Shown piece after piece: positions 1,058-5,251 of a DNA stretch of 5,372 bases (its first letter is position 1; each line of letters begins with the position of its first letter). The position numbers and the translations under genes were made by a program. The notes beneath the pieces are model-generated. The model searched no databases and had not been told where the DNA came from. It saw only the letters and a list, made by a program, of their open reading frames with translations. The stretch is from Opitutia bacterium. GTDB lineage: Bacteria; Verrucomicrobiota; Verrucomicrobiia; Opitutales; Opitutaceae. Location of the stretch: assembly GCA_003157575.1 (NCBI GenBank), contig PMKA01000331.1, positions 172-5,543 of the forward strand, in the 5' to 3' direction.

Positions 1058-2191
1058 ATGAATGCCAAGATCCGTATCGCCATCCTTCTTCTCTGCCTGC
1101 CCGCCGCTGGCGTGACCGCCCGGTCCGCCACCGCGGCCGCCCCGGCTGCTCCCGCTTCTTCCACCCCCGCGCCGGCGCCTGCCGCGTCCGCTGACGACGA
1201 TGACAACGATGAGCAGGACGCCAAAACCCTTTCACCCACCCACCTCAAATTCAGCGACCCCGCCAAACCCGGCAAACTTCGGCTGCGCGTGATGTGGGGC
1301 GACATCACGGTCACCGGCGCCGACACATCCGACGTCACCATCGTTTCCAACATCAAAAACAAGCAGCAGTCGGCCGCGCCCAAAGCCGGGGGCCTCCGCC
1401 GTCTCGATTCCGAAACCACCTACACCGCGACCGAAAAGGACAATGTGATCACGATCGAACTGGGCGGAGACAGTCCGGACGCGTCCAGCGGCGCCACGCT
1501 CTCCGTCACAACGCCCCGCAACACTTCCGTCGTCATCGAGAACACCTTTGGCGGCAGCGTCGACGTGAAGAACATCGAGGGCGACGCCGACATCCGCAGC
1601 CTCAACGGCGAGGTCACGCTCGACCAGATCGCCGGCTCGGCCCTGGTCGAAACGATGAACGGCGAGATCCACGCAACCTTCGTCAAGGTGACGGAAGGCA
1701 AGCCGCTTTCCTTCACTTCGATGAACGGGGAGGTCGATGTGCGCATCCCGGCCGACACCAAGGCCAACGTGCGACTTCGCACCCAAAACGGCGCGGTGTT
1801 GACCGACTTCGACGAGAAGGCACTCATCACAAAGACCGAACCCGTCCGCGGCCGGATCGGGAAGCGCATCCATGTTTCCACCCATTCCGGCGACAAATCG
1901 GATGGTTTCGACTGGCACGATGATATTCGCGATGCCGTCCGCGAGGCCACCCAGGCGGGCATGGAGGCGGCGCGCGAAGCCGCAGTCGCCGCCCGCGAAG
2001 CCGCCCAGGCCGCCCGCGAAGGCGTGGCCGAAGCCCGGGGCACACCCGCTCCCGCGCCTCTGCCTCCGATTCCACCCGTGCTGCCTTCAATCTCCGGCGG
2101 CAAGGTCGTCAGCGGCACCCTCAACGGCGGCGGACCCGAGATCCAGATCGCGACGATGAACGGCACCATCACCCTGCGCAAAACGCAGTGA
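1058..2191 (+). CDS. Secreted DUF4097-type beta-repeat (adhesin-like) protein
   Basis: Encodes 377 aa. Residues 1-27 look like a signal peptide (KIR, then a hydrophobic stretch, then small residues). An Ala/Pro-rich linker (about 27-45) and an acidic run (DDDDNDEQD, 46-54) follow. From about residue 60 the protein is beta-rich, with recurring (L/M/Q)-N-G turns at Asn183, 201, 223, 244, 356 and 368. These are typical of DUF4097/putative-adhesin beta-solenoids and predict an exported protein in the periplasm or at the cell surface. An Ala/Arg/Glu-rich helix (about 291-328) and a Pro-rich linker (329-343) interrupt the repeats before a last beta segment at 346-375. DUF4097 proteins are often encoded beside sigma/anti-sigma pairs and are thought to belong to envelope-stress regulons. 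The 53-bp spacing from the anti-sigma-type gene fits this. The exact function is unknown. Confidence 0.88.
   Translation: MNAKIRIAILLLCLPAAGVTARSATAAAPAAPASSTPAPAPAASADDDDNDEQDAKTLSPTHLKFSDPAKPGKLRLRVMWGDITVTGADTSDVTIVSNIKNKQQSAAPKAGGLRRLDSETTYTATEKDNVITIELGGDSPDASSGATLSVTTPRNTSVVIENTFGGSVDVKNIEGDADIRSLNGEVTLDQIAGSALVETMNGEIHATFVKVTEGKPLSFTSMNGEVDVRIPADTKANVRLRTQNGAVLTDFDEKALITKTEPVRGRIGKRIHVSTHSGDKSDGFDWHDDIRDAVREATQAGMEAAREAAVAAREAAQAAREGVAEARGTPAPAPLPPIPPVLPSISGGKVVSGTLNGGGPEIQIATMNGTITLRKTQ
1967..2029 (+). repeat. Three tandem 21-bp coding repeats (AAREAAx heptads)
   Basis: Three consecutive 21-bp units (1967-1987, 1988-2008, 2009-2029) encode the heptads AAREAAV, AAREAAQ and AAREGVA in the beta-repeat protein. 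The spacing matches a heptad helix with an Ala face and alternating Arg/Glu. The units probably arose by slippage or duplication, and copy number may vary between strains. Confidence 0.7.
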
Positions 2192-2313: not shown

Positions 2314-2694
2314 TTACTTTGCCAACGCTGCCGGGATGTTCGGAGAGAATGGATTGGGAATCACCTTTCTCTCGGGCGGCGATACGACCAAATCCATGTC
2401 CTCCATCTGGACCGCCCCGAGCAGCACCTGATCTCCCATCACGATCGCCCCGCCGAAACATCCCCGATTGCCCAGTATGACTTGAACCGGACCGACGTAG
2501 GGGACCACGTGTCGCTTCCCATCTGCAGTGGTGACCTCCCGCTTGTAGATTTCCTTCAGTTCCAGCTGCGCGGCCACATGTTCTGGAATGCAGAGGTGCA
2601 AAGCTCCGGTATCGGCCAGCGCATCGACATCAAGCGACTGAAGAGCAGGGTTGCTGGGATTCTTCAGCGTGATCCTGGCGAATGCGTAGCCCAT
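2314..2694 (-). CDS. Retropepsin-like (clan AA) aspartic protease, single domain
   Basis: Encodes 126 aa. It begins MGYAFARITLKNP and carries the catalytic triad ALADTGA, with Asp28-Thr29-Gly30. A central segment (REVTTADGKRHVVPYVGPV, 52-70) fits the flap region. The second hydrophobic-hydrophobic-Gly element is LLGAV (91-95), and the C-terminus is EDMDLVV...NPFSPNIP. This is a recognisable family of small bacterial clan AA aspartic proteases of single-domain length, which would need to dimerise to form an active site. There is no signal peptide, so it is probably cytoplasmic. Its natural substrate is not known. The ATG at 2694 was chosen because the family motif MGY starts there. The frame stays open to 3030, but the extra 112 residues are Arg/Pro-rich and look non-coding. 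There is no Shine-Dalgarno sequence on the coding strand. It stands alone, convergent with the beta-repeat gene. Confidence 0.88.
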   Translation of the reverse strand: MGYAFARITLKNPSNPALQSLDVDALADTGALHLCIPEHVAAQLELKEIYKREVTTADGKRHVVPYVGPVQVILGNRGCFGGAIVMGDQVLLGAVQMEDMDLVVSPPERKVIPNPFSPNIPAALAK

Positions 2695-2838
2695 GAAAGG
2701 AGGATGAACGAAGGCAAAGGATAGGCAAGCGTGCTTCCTTCTGCCCGGGAGTCCCAAGCCCGCCCGCGCTCGCCGACTGACGCGTCCATCCGCCCCTGCA
2801 GGAGGCGTTGTCCATCGGGTCTGTGAGCCGTGTGATGT

Positions 2839-2868
2839 TTTGCGCCTATTTGTGCCTCTTCGTGGCCC
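2839..2868 (+). repeat. Degenerate 10-bp tandem intergenic repeat
   Basis: Three decamers run head to tail: TTTGCGCCTA, TTTGTGCCTC and TTCGTGGCCC. They resemble the GCG-rich octamer repeats at 4429-4452 and 4500-4518, all variations on a TTTGYG-CCT theme. I have the impression that such tracts recur in intergenic DNA of GC-rich environmental bacteria. Their function is unknown. Confidence 0.5.
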
Positions 2869-2998
2869 GCTGTTCCGAGACCTTGGCTCCAGGGGCCAGT
2901 TCTCCGTGACCCTGTTCGAGTCTCCGGTTCCTTCCTCATCATTGTCCGGGCCAGGAGAGCGAAAAAAAGAGCGCCAGCGCGGTGAGAAGAGCTGTGCG

Positions 2999-3014
2999 GG
3001 GTCCTCTCGGACCC
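2999..3014. other. Perfect 6-bp hairpin with 4-nt loop
   Basis: GGGTCC (2999-3004) and GGACCC (3009-3014) are perfect inverted repeats around a 4-nt loop. Read on the minus strand the loop is GAGA, a GNRA-type tetraloop, which would be stable in RNA. No T-run follows on either strand, so it is not an intrinsic terminator. It lies 3' of the cassette-like region. Confidence 0.4.
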
Positions 3015-3051
3015 GGTTTGCTCCGATCATCAGAGGCCTGCCATGGCGGAC

Positions 3052-3111
3052 ACCGGACGCAGCTCGGAGGAAGGAGATTTCTCCGGCATTGGCAGTGGGG
3101 GCTTGTGCGGC
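3052..3111 (-). other. Weak attC-like palindrome after the second cassette gene
   Basis: Read on the minus strand, GCCGCAC (3111-3105) begins 22 nt after the stop codon and GTCCGGT (3058-3052) closes a 60-bp element. The two ends pair with one mismatch and one G-T wobble. The centre contains a GGAG/CTCC hairpin with an AAAT loop. The right flank (CTCCGAGCTGC before GTCCGGT) resembles the corresponding part of the better site at 3513-3603. The length is within the known attC range, but the inner L-box pairing is poor. It may be a degenerate site or a chance palindrome. Confidence 0.33.
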
Positions 3112-3133
3112 CTATTTTCCATAACACCGAATC

Positions 3134-3502
3134 TCACGAGATAAAGTGCATAATTGCGAGATCACCGTAGGCCCAGACAAGTGTCCCAAAACCAACAACA
3201 GCTACACCGCCAATCGTAACCCAAGCTTCTCTTTTCCTTTCTGGTTTGAGTTCGTAGTCCGCAAAGCCACCCAAACCATGATACCGCACAAAGAAATCGA
3301 ACCCCTCTATAAACAAGTCCCGGATAACAATTACGGCTCCAGCAAGACAGAGGATCGAGCCTGACCGAGCAAACGTCACACCTTTATCTTCTGGATGTGC
3401 TACGGAATACCCTGTGGAGTATGCAACAATACCACCTGCAACGGCCGTCAGAGCCGCCCAAAAGAAAATCGCTCTTAACTTGGTTTGCTTTTTGCCAGCC
3501 AT
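3134..3502 (-). CDS. Small membrane protein of unknown function (putative cassette gene)
   Basis: Encodes 122 aa and I do not recognise the family. Three membrane helices are predicted by eye: about 11-31, 46-62 and 94-113. A basic N-terminus (AGKKQTKLR) precedes the first helix, and a charged loop (ELKPERKRE, 84-92) precedes the third. The positive-inside rule would place both on the cytoplasmic side. There is no signal cleavage site and no catalytic motif. The coding strand reads AAGAAGGAC immediately before the ATG, an SD-like run unusually close to the start. The gene starts 10 nt after the end of the attC-like palindrome. Base composition is clearly lower in GC than the flanking genes, which fits recent acquisition. 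It could be a coincidental ORF, but the hydrophobic pattern, composition and boundaries argue for a real gene. Confidence 0.7.
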   Translation of the reverse strand: MAGKKQTKLRAIFFWAALTAVAGGIVAYSTGYSVAHPEDKGVTFARSGSILCLAGAVIVIRDLFIEGFDFFVRYHGLGGFADYELKPERKREAWVTIGGVAVVGFGTLVWAYGDLAIMHFIS

Positions 3503-3512
3503 GTCCTTCTTT

Positions 3513-3603
3513 GCCGAACGCTCTCAGGTCAGGGCGCCGGGCCTCCGGCGCGGTCGAAGCGGACGGGATTGTTCCCGGCGTTCCCTGCAGTGGCTGGTTC
3601 GGC
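3513..3603 (-). other. Candidate integron attC site
   Basis: A 91-bp nested inverted repeat lies between two small genes. In plus-strand coordinates the pairs are 3513-3519 with 3597-3603 (GCCGAAC/GTTCGGC), 3530-3534 with 3583-3587 (CAGGG/CCCTG), and 3536-3541 with 3574-3579 (GCCGGG/CCCGGC). All three are perfect and nested, giving 18 base pairs. On the gene strand the left end (R'') starts 2 nt after a stop codon, and the right end (R', GTTCGGC) lies 10 nt before the next ATG. GTTCGGC fits the R' consensus GTTRRRY except for one base. The preceding CTGACCT matches the L'-side consensus CTKANCT. The order of boxes, length and placement are those of attC. A terminator is less likely, as no T-run follows. 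Confidence 0.62.
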
Positions 3604-3605
3604 CT

Positions 3606-3989
3606 TCATTTTTTTGGCGTCGATTGTTTGCAGAAATCCAGCTGATCAGCAGAAAGGCTGCCGGGTAATGGACTCAGCTCTTCGAGCTGCCGCAGGGCAC
3701 GATCATAGTCATTCGCGATCCGGCAGAGCACCTGTTGACTCTCAGTCTTGTGCTGAAGCTGCCACTGATAGACCTGAAGTCGGCTCTGCAGCACCAAAGC
3801 GCGGAGAGTGCGCTGGTGCTCCAAATCGCGTACCGTCTCTTCTTGGCGGGATCTATTTAGGGTAAAGACCACGACAACAAACCCAAGCCCGGTGAACAAA
3901 CACTCCAACGTCGCGGCATCAAACTCACACTTATGCCAGACGAGCGCGCTCCAAGTGGCTAACACAAATATGAGTGATGCAATGTTCAT
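3606..3989 (-). CDS. Two-helix membrane protein with C-terminal coiled coil, unknown function (putative cassette gene)
   Basis: Encodes 127 aa and I do not recognise the family. Membrane helices lie at about 3-18 and 27-44, joined by a short loop with two cysteines (Cys21, Cys30). After the second helix, residues 46-106 are highly charged and Gln/Glu/Arg/Leu-rich with heptad-like leucine spacing, predicting a long helix or coiled coil, probably cytoplasmic. The C-terminus is short and polar (STPKK). The stop codon is 2 nt from the attC-like palindrome. The start follows a GTTCGGC motif by 9 nt, the same layout as the next gene. No clear Shine-Dalgarno sequence is present. The lower GC of the region suggests transfer. 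Gene reality is supported by the membrane/coil pattern and boundaries, but function cannot be inferred. Confidence 0.7.
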   Translation of the reverse strand: MNIASLIFVLATWSALVWHKCEFDAATLECLFTGLGFVVVVFTLNRSRQEETVRDLEHQRTLRALVLQSRLQVYQWQLQHKTESQQVLCRIANDYDRALRQLEELSPLPGSLSADQLDFCKQSTPKK

Positions 3990-3998
3990 GAGCTTTAT

Positions 3999-4005
3999 GC
4001 CGAAC
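3999..4005 (-). other. GTTCGGC cassette-boundary motif upstream of the first cassette gene
   Basis: On the minus strand GTTCGGC ends 9 nt before the ATG at 3989. It is identical to the R' end of the attC-like site at 3513-3519, which lies 10 nt before the next ATG. It would mark the upstream recombination point of the first cassette. No full attC palindrome is visible on its upstream side, so it might be an attI junction, a secondary integration site, or the remains of an attC. Confidence 0.4.
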
Positions 4006-4230: not shown

Positions 4231-4266
4231 CTCCGCTGCCTCCGCGAGCTCCTGTGCACATCCGTG
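4231..4266 (+). repeat. Imperfect direct repeat, copy A
   Basis: This is the first of two related copies; the other is at 4550-4587. The first 26 bases agree at 23 positions and share the block GCGAGCTCCTGTG. The 3' ends then agree again in TCCGTG after a small length difference. It begins CTCCGCTGCCTCCGCGAG, a CTCCGC-rich degenerate tandem style. Confidence 0.6.
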
Positions 4267-4312
4267 GTTCGGCAGGCTCACCACAAGTGGATCGCGGGCT
4301 TGGGAACCGAAG

Positions 4313-4711: not shown

Positions 4712-5251
4712 TTACTCATCCTCGGAGAACGCGAACAACGTCCGCACCGCAAGGCCGTCCTCCGCCAGCCGACGCGAACCGCCCAGGTCGGGCAGGTCGA
4801 TGACCGCCGCCACGCCGACGACCTCGCCCTTCAGCGAACGAAACAGCCGCGCCGCCGCAAGAAGCGTCCCGCCCGTCGCGATCAGGTCGTCGACGATGAC
4901 GATCCGGTCGCCGGCGCGACAGGCGTCGGCATGCACCTCGATCGTCGCGCTGCCATACTCGAGCGCATAGTCCTCGGCGACGGTCTTGAAGGGAAGCTTG
5001 CCCTTCTTTCGCACGAGCACGACGGGCCTGCCGAGCTTGTAGGCCAGCGCGCCGCCGAGCAGAAACCCGCGTGCATCCACTGCCGCAATGATGTCCGGCG
5101 CAAGCGGCCCCACGGCTCCGACAAGCGCGTCGATGGTCGCCCGGAACGCCTCCGCATCCTGGAAGAGCGTGGTGACATCGCGGAAGTTGATGCCGGGTTT
5201 GGGCCAGCCGCGCACCGTGCGAATCCGGGATTTCAGGCTGTTTGCGTCCAT
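4712..5251 (-). CDS. apt: Adenine phosphoribosyltransferase
   Basis: Encodes 179 aa, the usual length for bacterial Apt. It is a cytoplasmic purine-salvage enzyme that converts adenine and PRPP to AMP and pyrophosphate. The N-terminus has the family pattern VRGWPKPGINFRDVTTLFQD (13-32). Residues 53-66 (DIIAAVDARGFLLG) form the Apt core motif. RKKGKLPFKT (81-90) is the flexible catalytic loop region, followed by YALEYGSATIEVH (95-107). The PRPP-binding motif VIVDDLIATGGT (118-129) is intact, and no key residue appears to be missing. The ATG at 5251 gives the standard N-terminus, with only a weak SD-like sequence. High GC (about 72% in a counted line) matches the host background. It is transcribed alone within the window. 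Confidence 0.97.
   Translation of the reverse strand: MDANSLKSRIRTVRGWPKPGINFRDVTTLFQDAEAFRATIDALVGAVGPLAPDIIAAVDARGFLLGGALAYKLGRPVVLVRKKGKLPFKTVAEDYALEYGSATIEVHADACRAGDRIVIVDDLIATGGTLLAAARLFRSLKGEVVGVAAVIDLPDLGGSRRLAEDGLAVRTLFAFSEDE

Follow-up and report, generated by a model that had tools for sequence, protein, structure and literature searches.

We identified an integron attC site, supported by its sequence and by the pairing of its arms, at positions 3513-3603 of the window, the whole 5,372-nucleotide stretch of an Opitutia bacterium genome analysed here. The site quite probably joins two gene cassettes that were inserted in a chromosomal spacer by an integrase acting from elsewhere. Its kind is already known; the core dialect, together with attI-like regions lacking an integrase, makes it a variant. 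The window belongs to a contig (C154) of 5,543 bases, in a genome of 3.99 Mb that comprises 546 contigs and is 73.6% complete. The attC at 3513-3603, together with another attC following the second gene, points to two cassettes in tandem; a preliminary description of this DNA had recognized the first site and missed both the second (3022-3111) and the upstream core (3999-4005). The features are:

3513-3603, minus strand: attC site between cassettes 1 and 2 (model score 61.7 bits; its closest relative, in an integrase-linked array, is 84% identical over 95 nt)
3603-3597 and 3519-3513, minus strand: its outer arms, R'' GCCGAAC and R' GTTCGGC
3587-3583 and 3534-3530, minus strand: its inner arms, L'' CAGGG and L' CCCTG
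3580-3574 pairing with 3541-3535, minus strand: its central stem (CGCCGGG/CCCGGCG, 7 bp), with AA unpaired beside L''
3022-3111, minus strand: attC ending cassette 2 (R'' 3111-3105 GCCGCAC, L'' CTGCCA, L' TGGCAG; 37.7 bits)
3999-4005, minus strand: core GTTCGGC at the upstream boundary of cassette 1, following TATTACACT; exact match to cassette 1 R''
3519-4004, minus strand: gene cassette 1, predicted limits, crossover between G and TT
3028-3518, minus strand: gene cassette 2, limits predicted likewise; boundary rule holds at 6 of 7 bases
3606-3989, minus strand: cassette 1 ORF (127 aa), which matches no Pfam or NCBIfam family
3134-3502, minus strand: cassette 2 ORF (122 aa), in which no Pfam or NCBIfam family exceeds its cut-off
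1058-2191, plus strand: flanking chromosomal gene with a DUF4097 domain, present in 4 of 5 same-genus genomes
4712-5251, minus strand: chromosomal flanking gene encoding a phosphoribosyltransferase domain, beside the DUF4097 gene in three same-genus genomes

Arms, strand and folding of the site

GCCGAAC at 3513-3519 and GTTCGGC at 3597-3603 are exact complements over 7 bp, as first described. Of the three perfect inverted repeats of 7, 5 and 6 bp listed in the preliminary description, the 7-bp and 5-bp pairs are present, while the third proved to be 7 bp long and not 6. The box CTGACCT, reported next to R', adjoins the core on the minus strand only, so the site reads R''-L''-L'-R' on that strand, a matter previously left open. 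ORF positions bear out that the site takes up the gap between the stop of one small minus-strand gene (3989-3606) and the start of the next (3502-3134). As both genes and the site lie on the minus strand, the recombining strand would be the plus strand. Folding of the plus strand as single-stranded DNA, a check proposed at the outset, gave -26.3 kcal/mol (z -2.43, with 4 of 200 shuffles as low), and the minus strand gave -26.0 kcal/mol (z -3.13, 0 of 200).

The genome was also searched for further copies, as proposed earlier. The outer palindrome GCCGAAC-N40..98-GTTCGGC occurs at 10 places versus 2 for the reversed pattern, and by itself is weak evidence for an attC; when the inner-arm motifs were added, 3 places remained versus 0 reversed.

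A covariance model of related attC sites

Outside clear sites, loose script scans hit reversed controls at a similar rate, and a covariance model was therefore used instead. Regions near three more distant integrase matches (L119, L122 and L123) were set aside, their scan matches being no better than controls. The model was built from 11 attC sites, excluding those of the window: 3 from the same genome (contigs C3, C51 and C266), 6 of the 7 in the array of locus L048, and 2 from the same-genus genome G002. The seventh L048 site, being the closest relative of the one at 3513-3603, was withheld. In the consensus structure, which was drawn by hand from those same sequences, 86.6% of 187 cells pair, compared with 23-35% when partners were slid by 1-3 columns, although a hand-drawn structure is expected to beat slid versions anyway. 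All 10 pairs of the L helix, as drawn, vary on both sides, and the unpaired A in L'' is invariant across the 11 sites. In the R helix, columns 2 and 4 are each unpaired in 6 of the 11 sites, for which a crossover within the core, with R'' matching the start of its own cassette, offers a reason.

Against this model, built without it, the site at 3513-3603 scored 61.7 bits (E 2.5e-14 in the window), and it is this score that decides in favour of an attC, as the preliminary description had proposed. The second match, at 3022-3111, scored 37.7 bits, and the third-best only 10.6 bits. In an independent test, the arm score at 3022-3111 was reached by 5 of 2000 shuffles; the last seven bases of this second site (3028-3022) read GATCGGA where a GTT core is expected. 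Under strict filters, 51 of 115 genomes had model matches at E ≤ 0.1. A lack of further similar palindromes in the genome had been named as evidence against an attC; 14 such matches were found there.

That the hairpin might be an ordinary transcription terminator, or a chance palindrome between co-directional genes, would agree with its place after a stop codon and ahead of a start codon, and with its folding better than shuffles. This reading is scarcely credible given the score with a model trained on other sites, the lack of any RNA family match at 3513-3603 in an Rfam search, and the recurrence of model-type sites beside different genes in integrase-linked arrays.

Cassette boundaries and the core variant

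If strands are exchanged between G and TT, the TTNNNN at a junction belongs to the next cassette, and R'' should match the start of its own cassette. Among 18 hand-chosen cassettes the match was exact in 17, the sole exception being cassette 2 of the window (6 of 7 bases), whereas R' of the same site matched R'' in 3 of 13. The count was then extended to 265 of 269 model hits in 34 loci, after dropping three cut by a contig end and one partial match. Here 212 of 237 neighbouring pairs obeyed the rule; within single sites, the halves agreed in 75 of 265. Within-genome shuffles gave a mean of 75.6, and 212 was reached in 0 of 10,000. The rule was weakest in G060 (1 of 4), G002 (1 of 5) and G000 (0 of 1, the pair in the window). 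These counts support a crossover directly after the core G, as read from sequence.

Related palindromes are scattered over several contigs of the genome, as a self-spreading mobile palindromic repeat of REP or MITE type would be. However, in these palindromes a single orientation is kept, a different small gene lies between one and the next, integrases and attI-like regions stand nearby, and the cassette boundary rule is followed, which makes such a repeat very improbable.

GTT begins the core in 244 of the 265 sites, followed by C in 152, G in 46, A in 45 and T in 1; these shares lean toward the GTTC type, since the sites stem from eleven sources, with many drawn from shared arrays, and the model was trained on such sites. 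Only 75 of the 244 GTT-cored sites fit GTTRRRY. Departure from that consensus is thus, in the sites examined, a family trait, in agreement with the lineage-specific attC variant suggested initially: the base in question is C in 152 of 244.

Compared with known attC sites (59-base elements), the site shares the R''-L''-L'-R' arms, spacers of 9-10 bases, an A left unpaired in L'', which is T on the recombining strand, a position after each gene and a crossover after the core G. Its R'' and R' are complementary over 7 bp around a GNT core, with the crossover after G followed in the two cassette counts above; L'' and L' (CAGGG/CCCTG) pair, with AA extrahelical in L''; and the sites follow genes in one orientation in arrays, with 2 cassettes here and 7 in L048. 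It differs in its core, GTTCGGC, which has C at the first R of GTTRRRY, a consensus and not a strict requirement; 169 of the 244 GTT-cored sites also fall outside it. In the available excerpts of PMC8352920, Verrucomicrobiota is not among the names of eleven taxon-specific attC models, and integrons are already on record for this phylum in the excerpts of PMC8618304. Among the papers searched, seemingly none on integrons and attC names Opitut- taxa.

Integrase-linked arrays and attI-like regions

The nearest relative of the site lies in the seven-attC array of L048, whose integrase is 63% identical to that encoded on contig C2 of the window's genome. The two loci have the same layout, which in L048 comprises the integrase, GGCATAAACAAC-GTTCGGC and then seven attC sites. 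The record holding this closest full integron (DMNR01000155.1) is titled Actinomycetota bacterium UBA10799, which may reflect a mislabelled bin or a transfer. Elsewhere, loci L178 and L179 (G018:C1:469000-495500) hold 43 GTT-cored attC matches in about 26.5 kb, with an integrase match near the end. Cassettes in L163, L166 and L174 have GAT instead of GTT cores, and their R'' carries the matching change GCCxATC; among GAT-cored places found by script, a matching GCCxATC R'' follows in 6 of 7.

The C2 integrase ORF matches TIGR02249 with 240 bits, below the family cut-off of 265, and aligns with IntI4 of the PDB over residues 85-398. TATAAACACA-GTTCGGC closes the region before this ORF; a different gene comes next, and then an attC truncated by the contig end. 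Over 308 bases that finish with the last base of GTTCGGC, C2 and C3 share 98.7% identity, and they diverge beyond it, as expected if cassettes enter there. Copies of the C2 attI-like region on C3 and C4 are 99% and 93% identical, respectively, and neither contig has an integrase-family match. Four attI-like copies (L036:7225-7532 on C3, L120:2725-3015 on C4, G002:C169:55216-55448 and G005:C68:31349-31615), 71-99% identical, were seen with no integrase detected alongside, an absence that rests partly on a search at E ≤ 1e-30; a different gene follows GTTCGGC on C3, C4 and G002:C169. On C51, an integrase fragment (L034:3450-4259, plus strand; TIGR02249 positions 32-157, 74.8 bits) adjoins attC sites. 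There is no integrase match on the window's own contig, and the C2 integrase is the enzyme predicted to act on the site at 3513-3603 from elsewhere in the genome.

The cassettes as newcomers at the locus

The gene at 4712-5251 is apt-like on our reading of its domain. In the three same-genus genomes whose contigs extend as far as the apt-like gene, the spacer between it and the DUF4097 gene measures about 75, 830 and 2,370 bases, versus 2,520 here, and shows neither similarity to the window's spacer nor an attC match. Vertical conservation of the two small genes with their spacer, which the preliminary description had set against its own reading, is not what we see: both genes are absent from the locus in the comparable same-genus genomes. 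In a large protein database, the cassette 1 protein has its own entry and three relatives (69-82% identity), and the cassette 2 protein its own entry only; among the 115 genomes the latter occurs in 1, that of the window. No empty site or upstream flank was found in the other genomes of the 115 searched. The cassettes thus appear to be newcomers, likely inserted by an integron integrase.

Since its two attC sites lie within 4 kb of each other and the contig is free of integrase matches, the locus fits the definition of a CALIN (cluster of attC sites lacking an integron-integrase), which calls for at least two attC sites, although it comprises only two cassettes; the neighbourhood in view is short because the contig is 5.5 kb. 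Directly past the terminal attC, on the same strand, lies an ORF (2314-3030, minus) that carries an aspartyl protease domain (PF13650, 29.6 bits); it may be a third cassette lacking an attC, or a chromosomal gene. At the window's edge (1-78, minus), a weak TPP riboswitch match (28.6 bits versus a gathering score of 54.3) is probably due to chance, as it scores only 21.3 bits with the full contig.

Proposed insertion at a secondary site

In the proposed mechanism, the plus strand of the window would fold, and the integrase would bind the R and L arms together with the unpaired base lying between these. With strand exchange between the core's G and TT, the cassette would move as a circle, and off-target entry may have occurred at a place reading about ACACT-GATCGGA, which resembles the genome's attI-like ACACA-GTTCGGC. 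As the cassettes lie downstream of the apt-like gene on the same strand, read-through is predicted to be able to express both.

At the upstream junction, the bases before the core at 4005-3999 (TATTACACT) form no attC arm. A GTTCGGC at 4266-4272 (plus strand) was rejected as a partner of this core: the pair spans 274 bases in all, with no attC arms and no model match. A decayed attI upstream of 4005 was likewise rejected, since similarity ends after about ten bases. The 16 bases before the core bear a modest likeness to the attI-like site, equalled at 5 of the 323 remaining GWT places in the window. The upstream junction is G-TT, with a complete core, and the downstream junction G-AT (G-ATCGGA); both fit GWT or GNT. 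According to excerpts of PMC4618277 and PMC10127599, integron integrases use GWTMW or GNT as secondary sites and have been reported to cleave within GAT. A complete upstream core, a G-AT downstream junction and a non-integron spacer are shared with secondary-site or attG insertion; whereas cases published in these excerpts involve a class 1 or Tn21 integrase, we infer the one in the window. Several findings count against this explanation: the C2 integrase scores below the cut-off, the core lies outside GTTRRRY, the cassette 2 R'' is one base off its own boundary, GATCGGA is close to GAT-type cores, no empty site was found, and the likeness of the upstream junction to attI is modest. attG is reportedly treated by Loot et al. 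2024.

The two cassettes could instead be what is left of a larger integron at this place whose integrase, attI and other cassettes disappeared through deletion or rearrangement; even then the site would be an attC. The downstream end need not be chromosomal, as GATCGGA is one base from GATCGGC, a GAT-type core of real cassettes in family arrays; the same-strand ORF at 2314-3030 follows; and degraded parts occur elsewhere in the genome (the integrase fragment on C51, and attI-like regions without integrase on C3 and C4). We nevertheless regard a remnant as rather unlikely, because no attI-like region extends beyond those ten bases upstream of 4005, the window holds no third attC and its contig no integrase match, and the flanking chromosomal genes are neighbours in three same-genus genomes. 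Off-target insertion at a place like ACACTG/ATCGGA would fit best, and we favour it over a decayed larger array.

Implications

Of the 244 GTT-cored sites examined, 169 would escape a search bound to GTTRRRY, and the cassettes of this family may therefore be under-counted. With the matched-ends rule, crossovers and cassette limits in uncultured genomes could be mapped from sequence alone. Off-target insertion has been put forward as an origin of CALINs (excerpts of PMC8618304), integrase-less clusters of this kind, and the window may offer a natural case of such an insertion. More tentatively, the Opitutia family may have a distributed integron system with its own dialect, in which an integrase would serve attC and attI sites with GTTCGGC and GAT cores, solitary attI regions lacking an integrase would act as extra landing pads in trans, and off-target insertion would seed stray cassettes into ordinary spacers.
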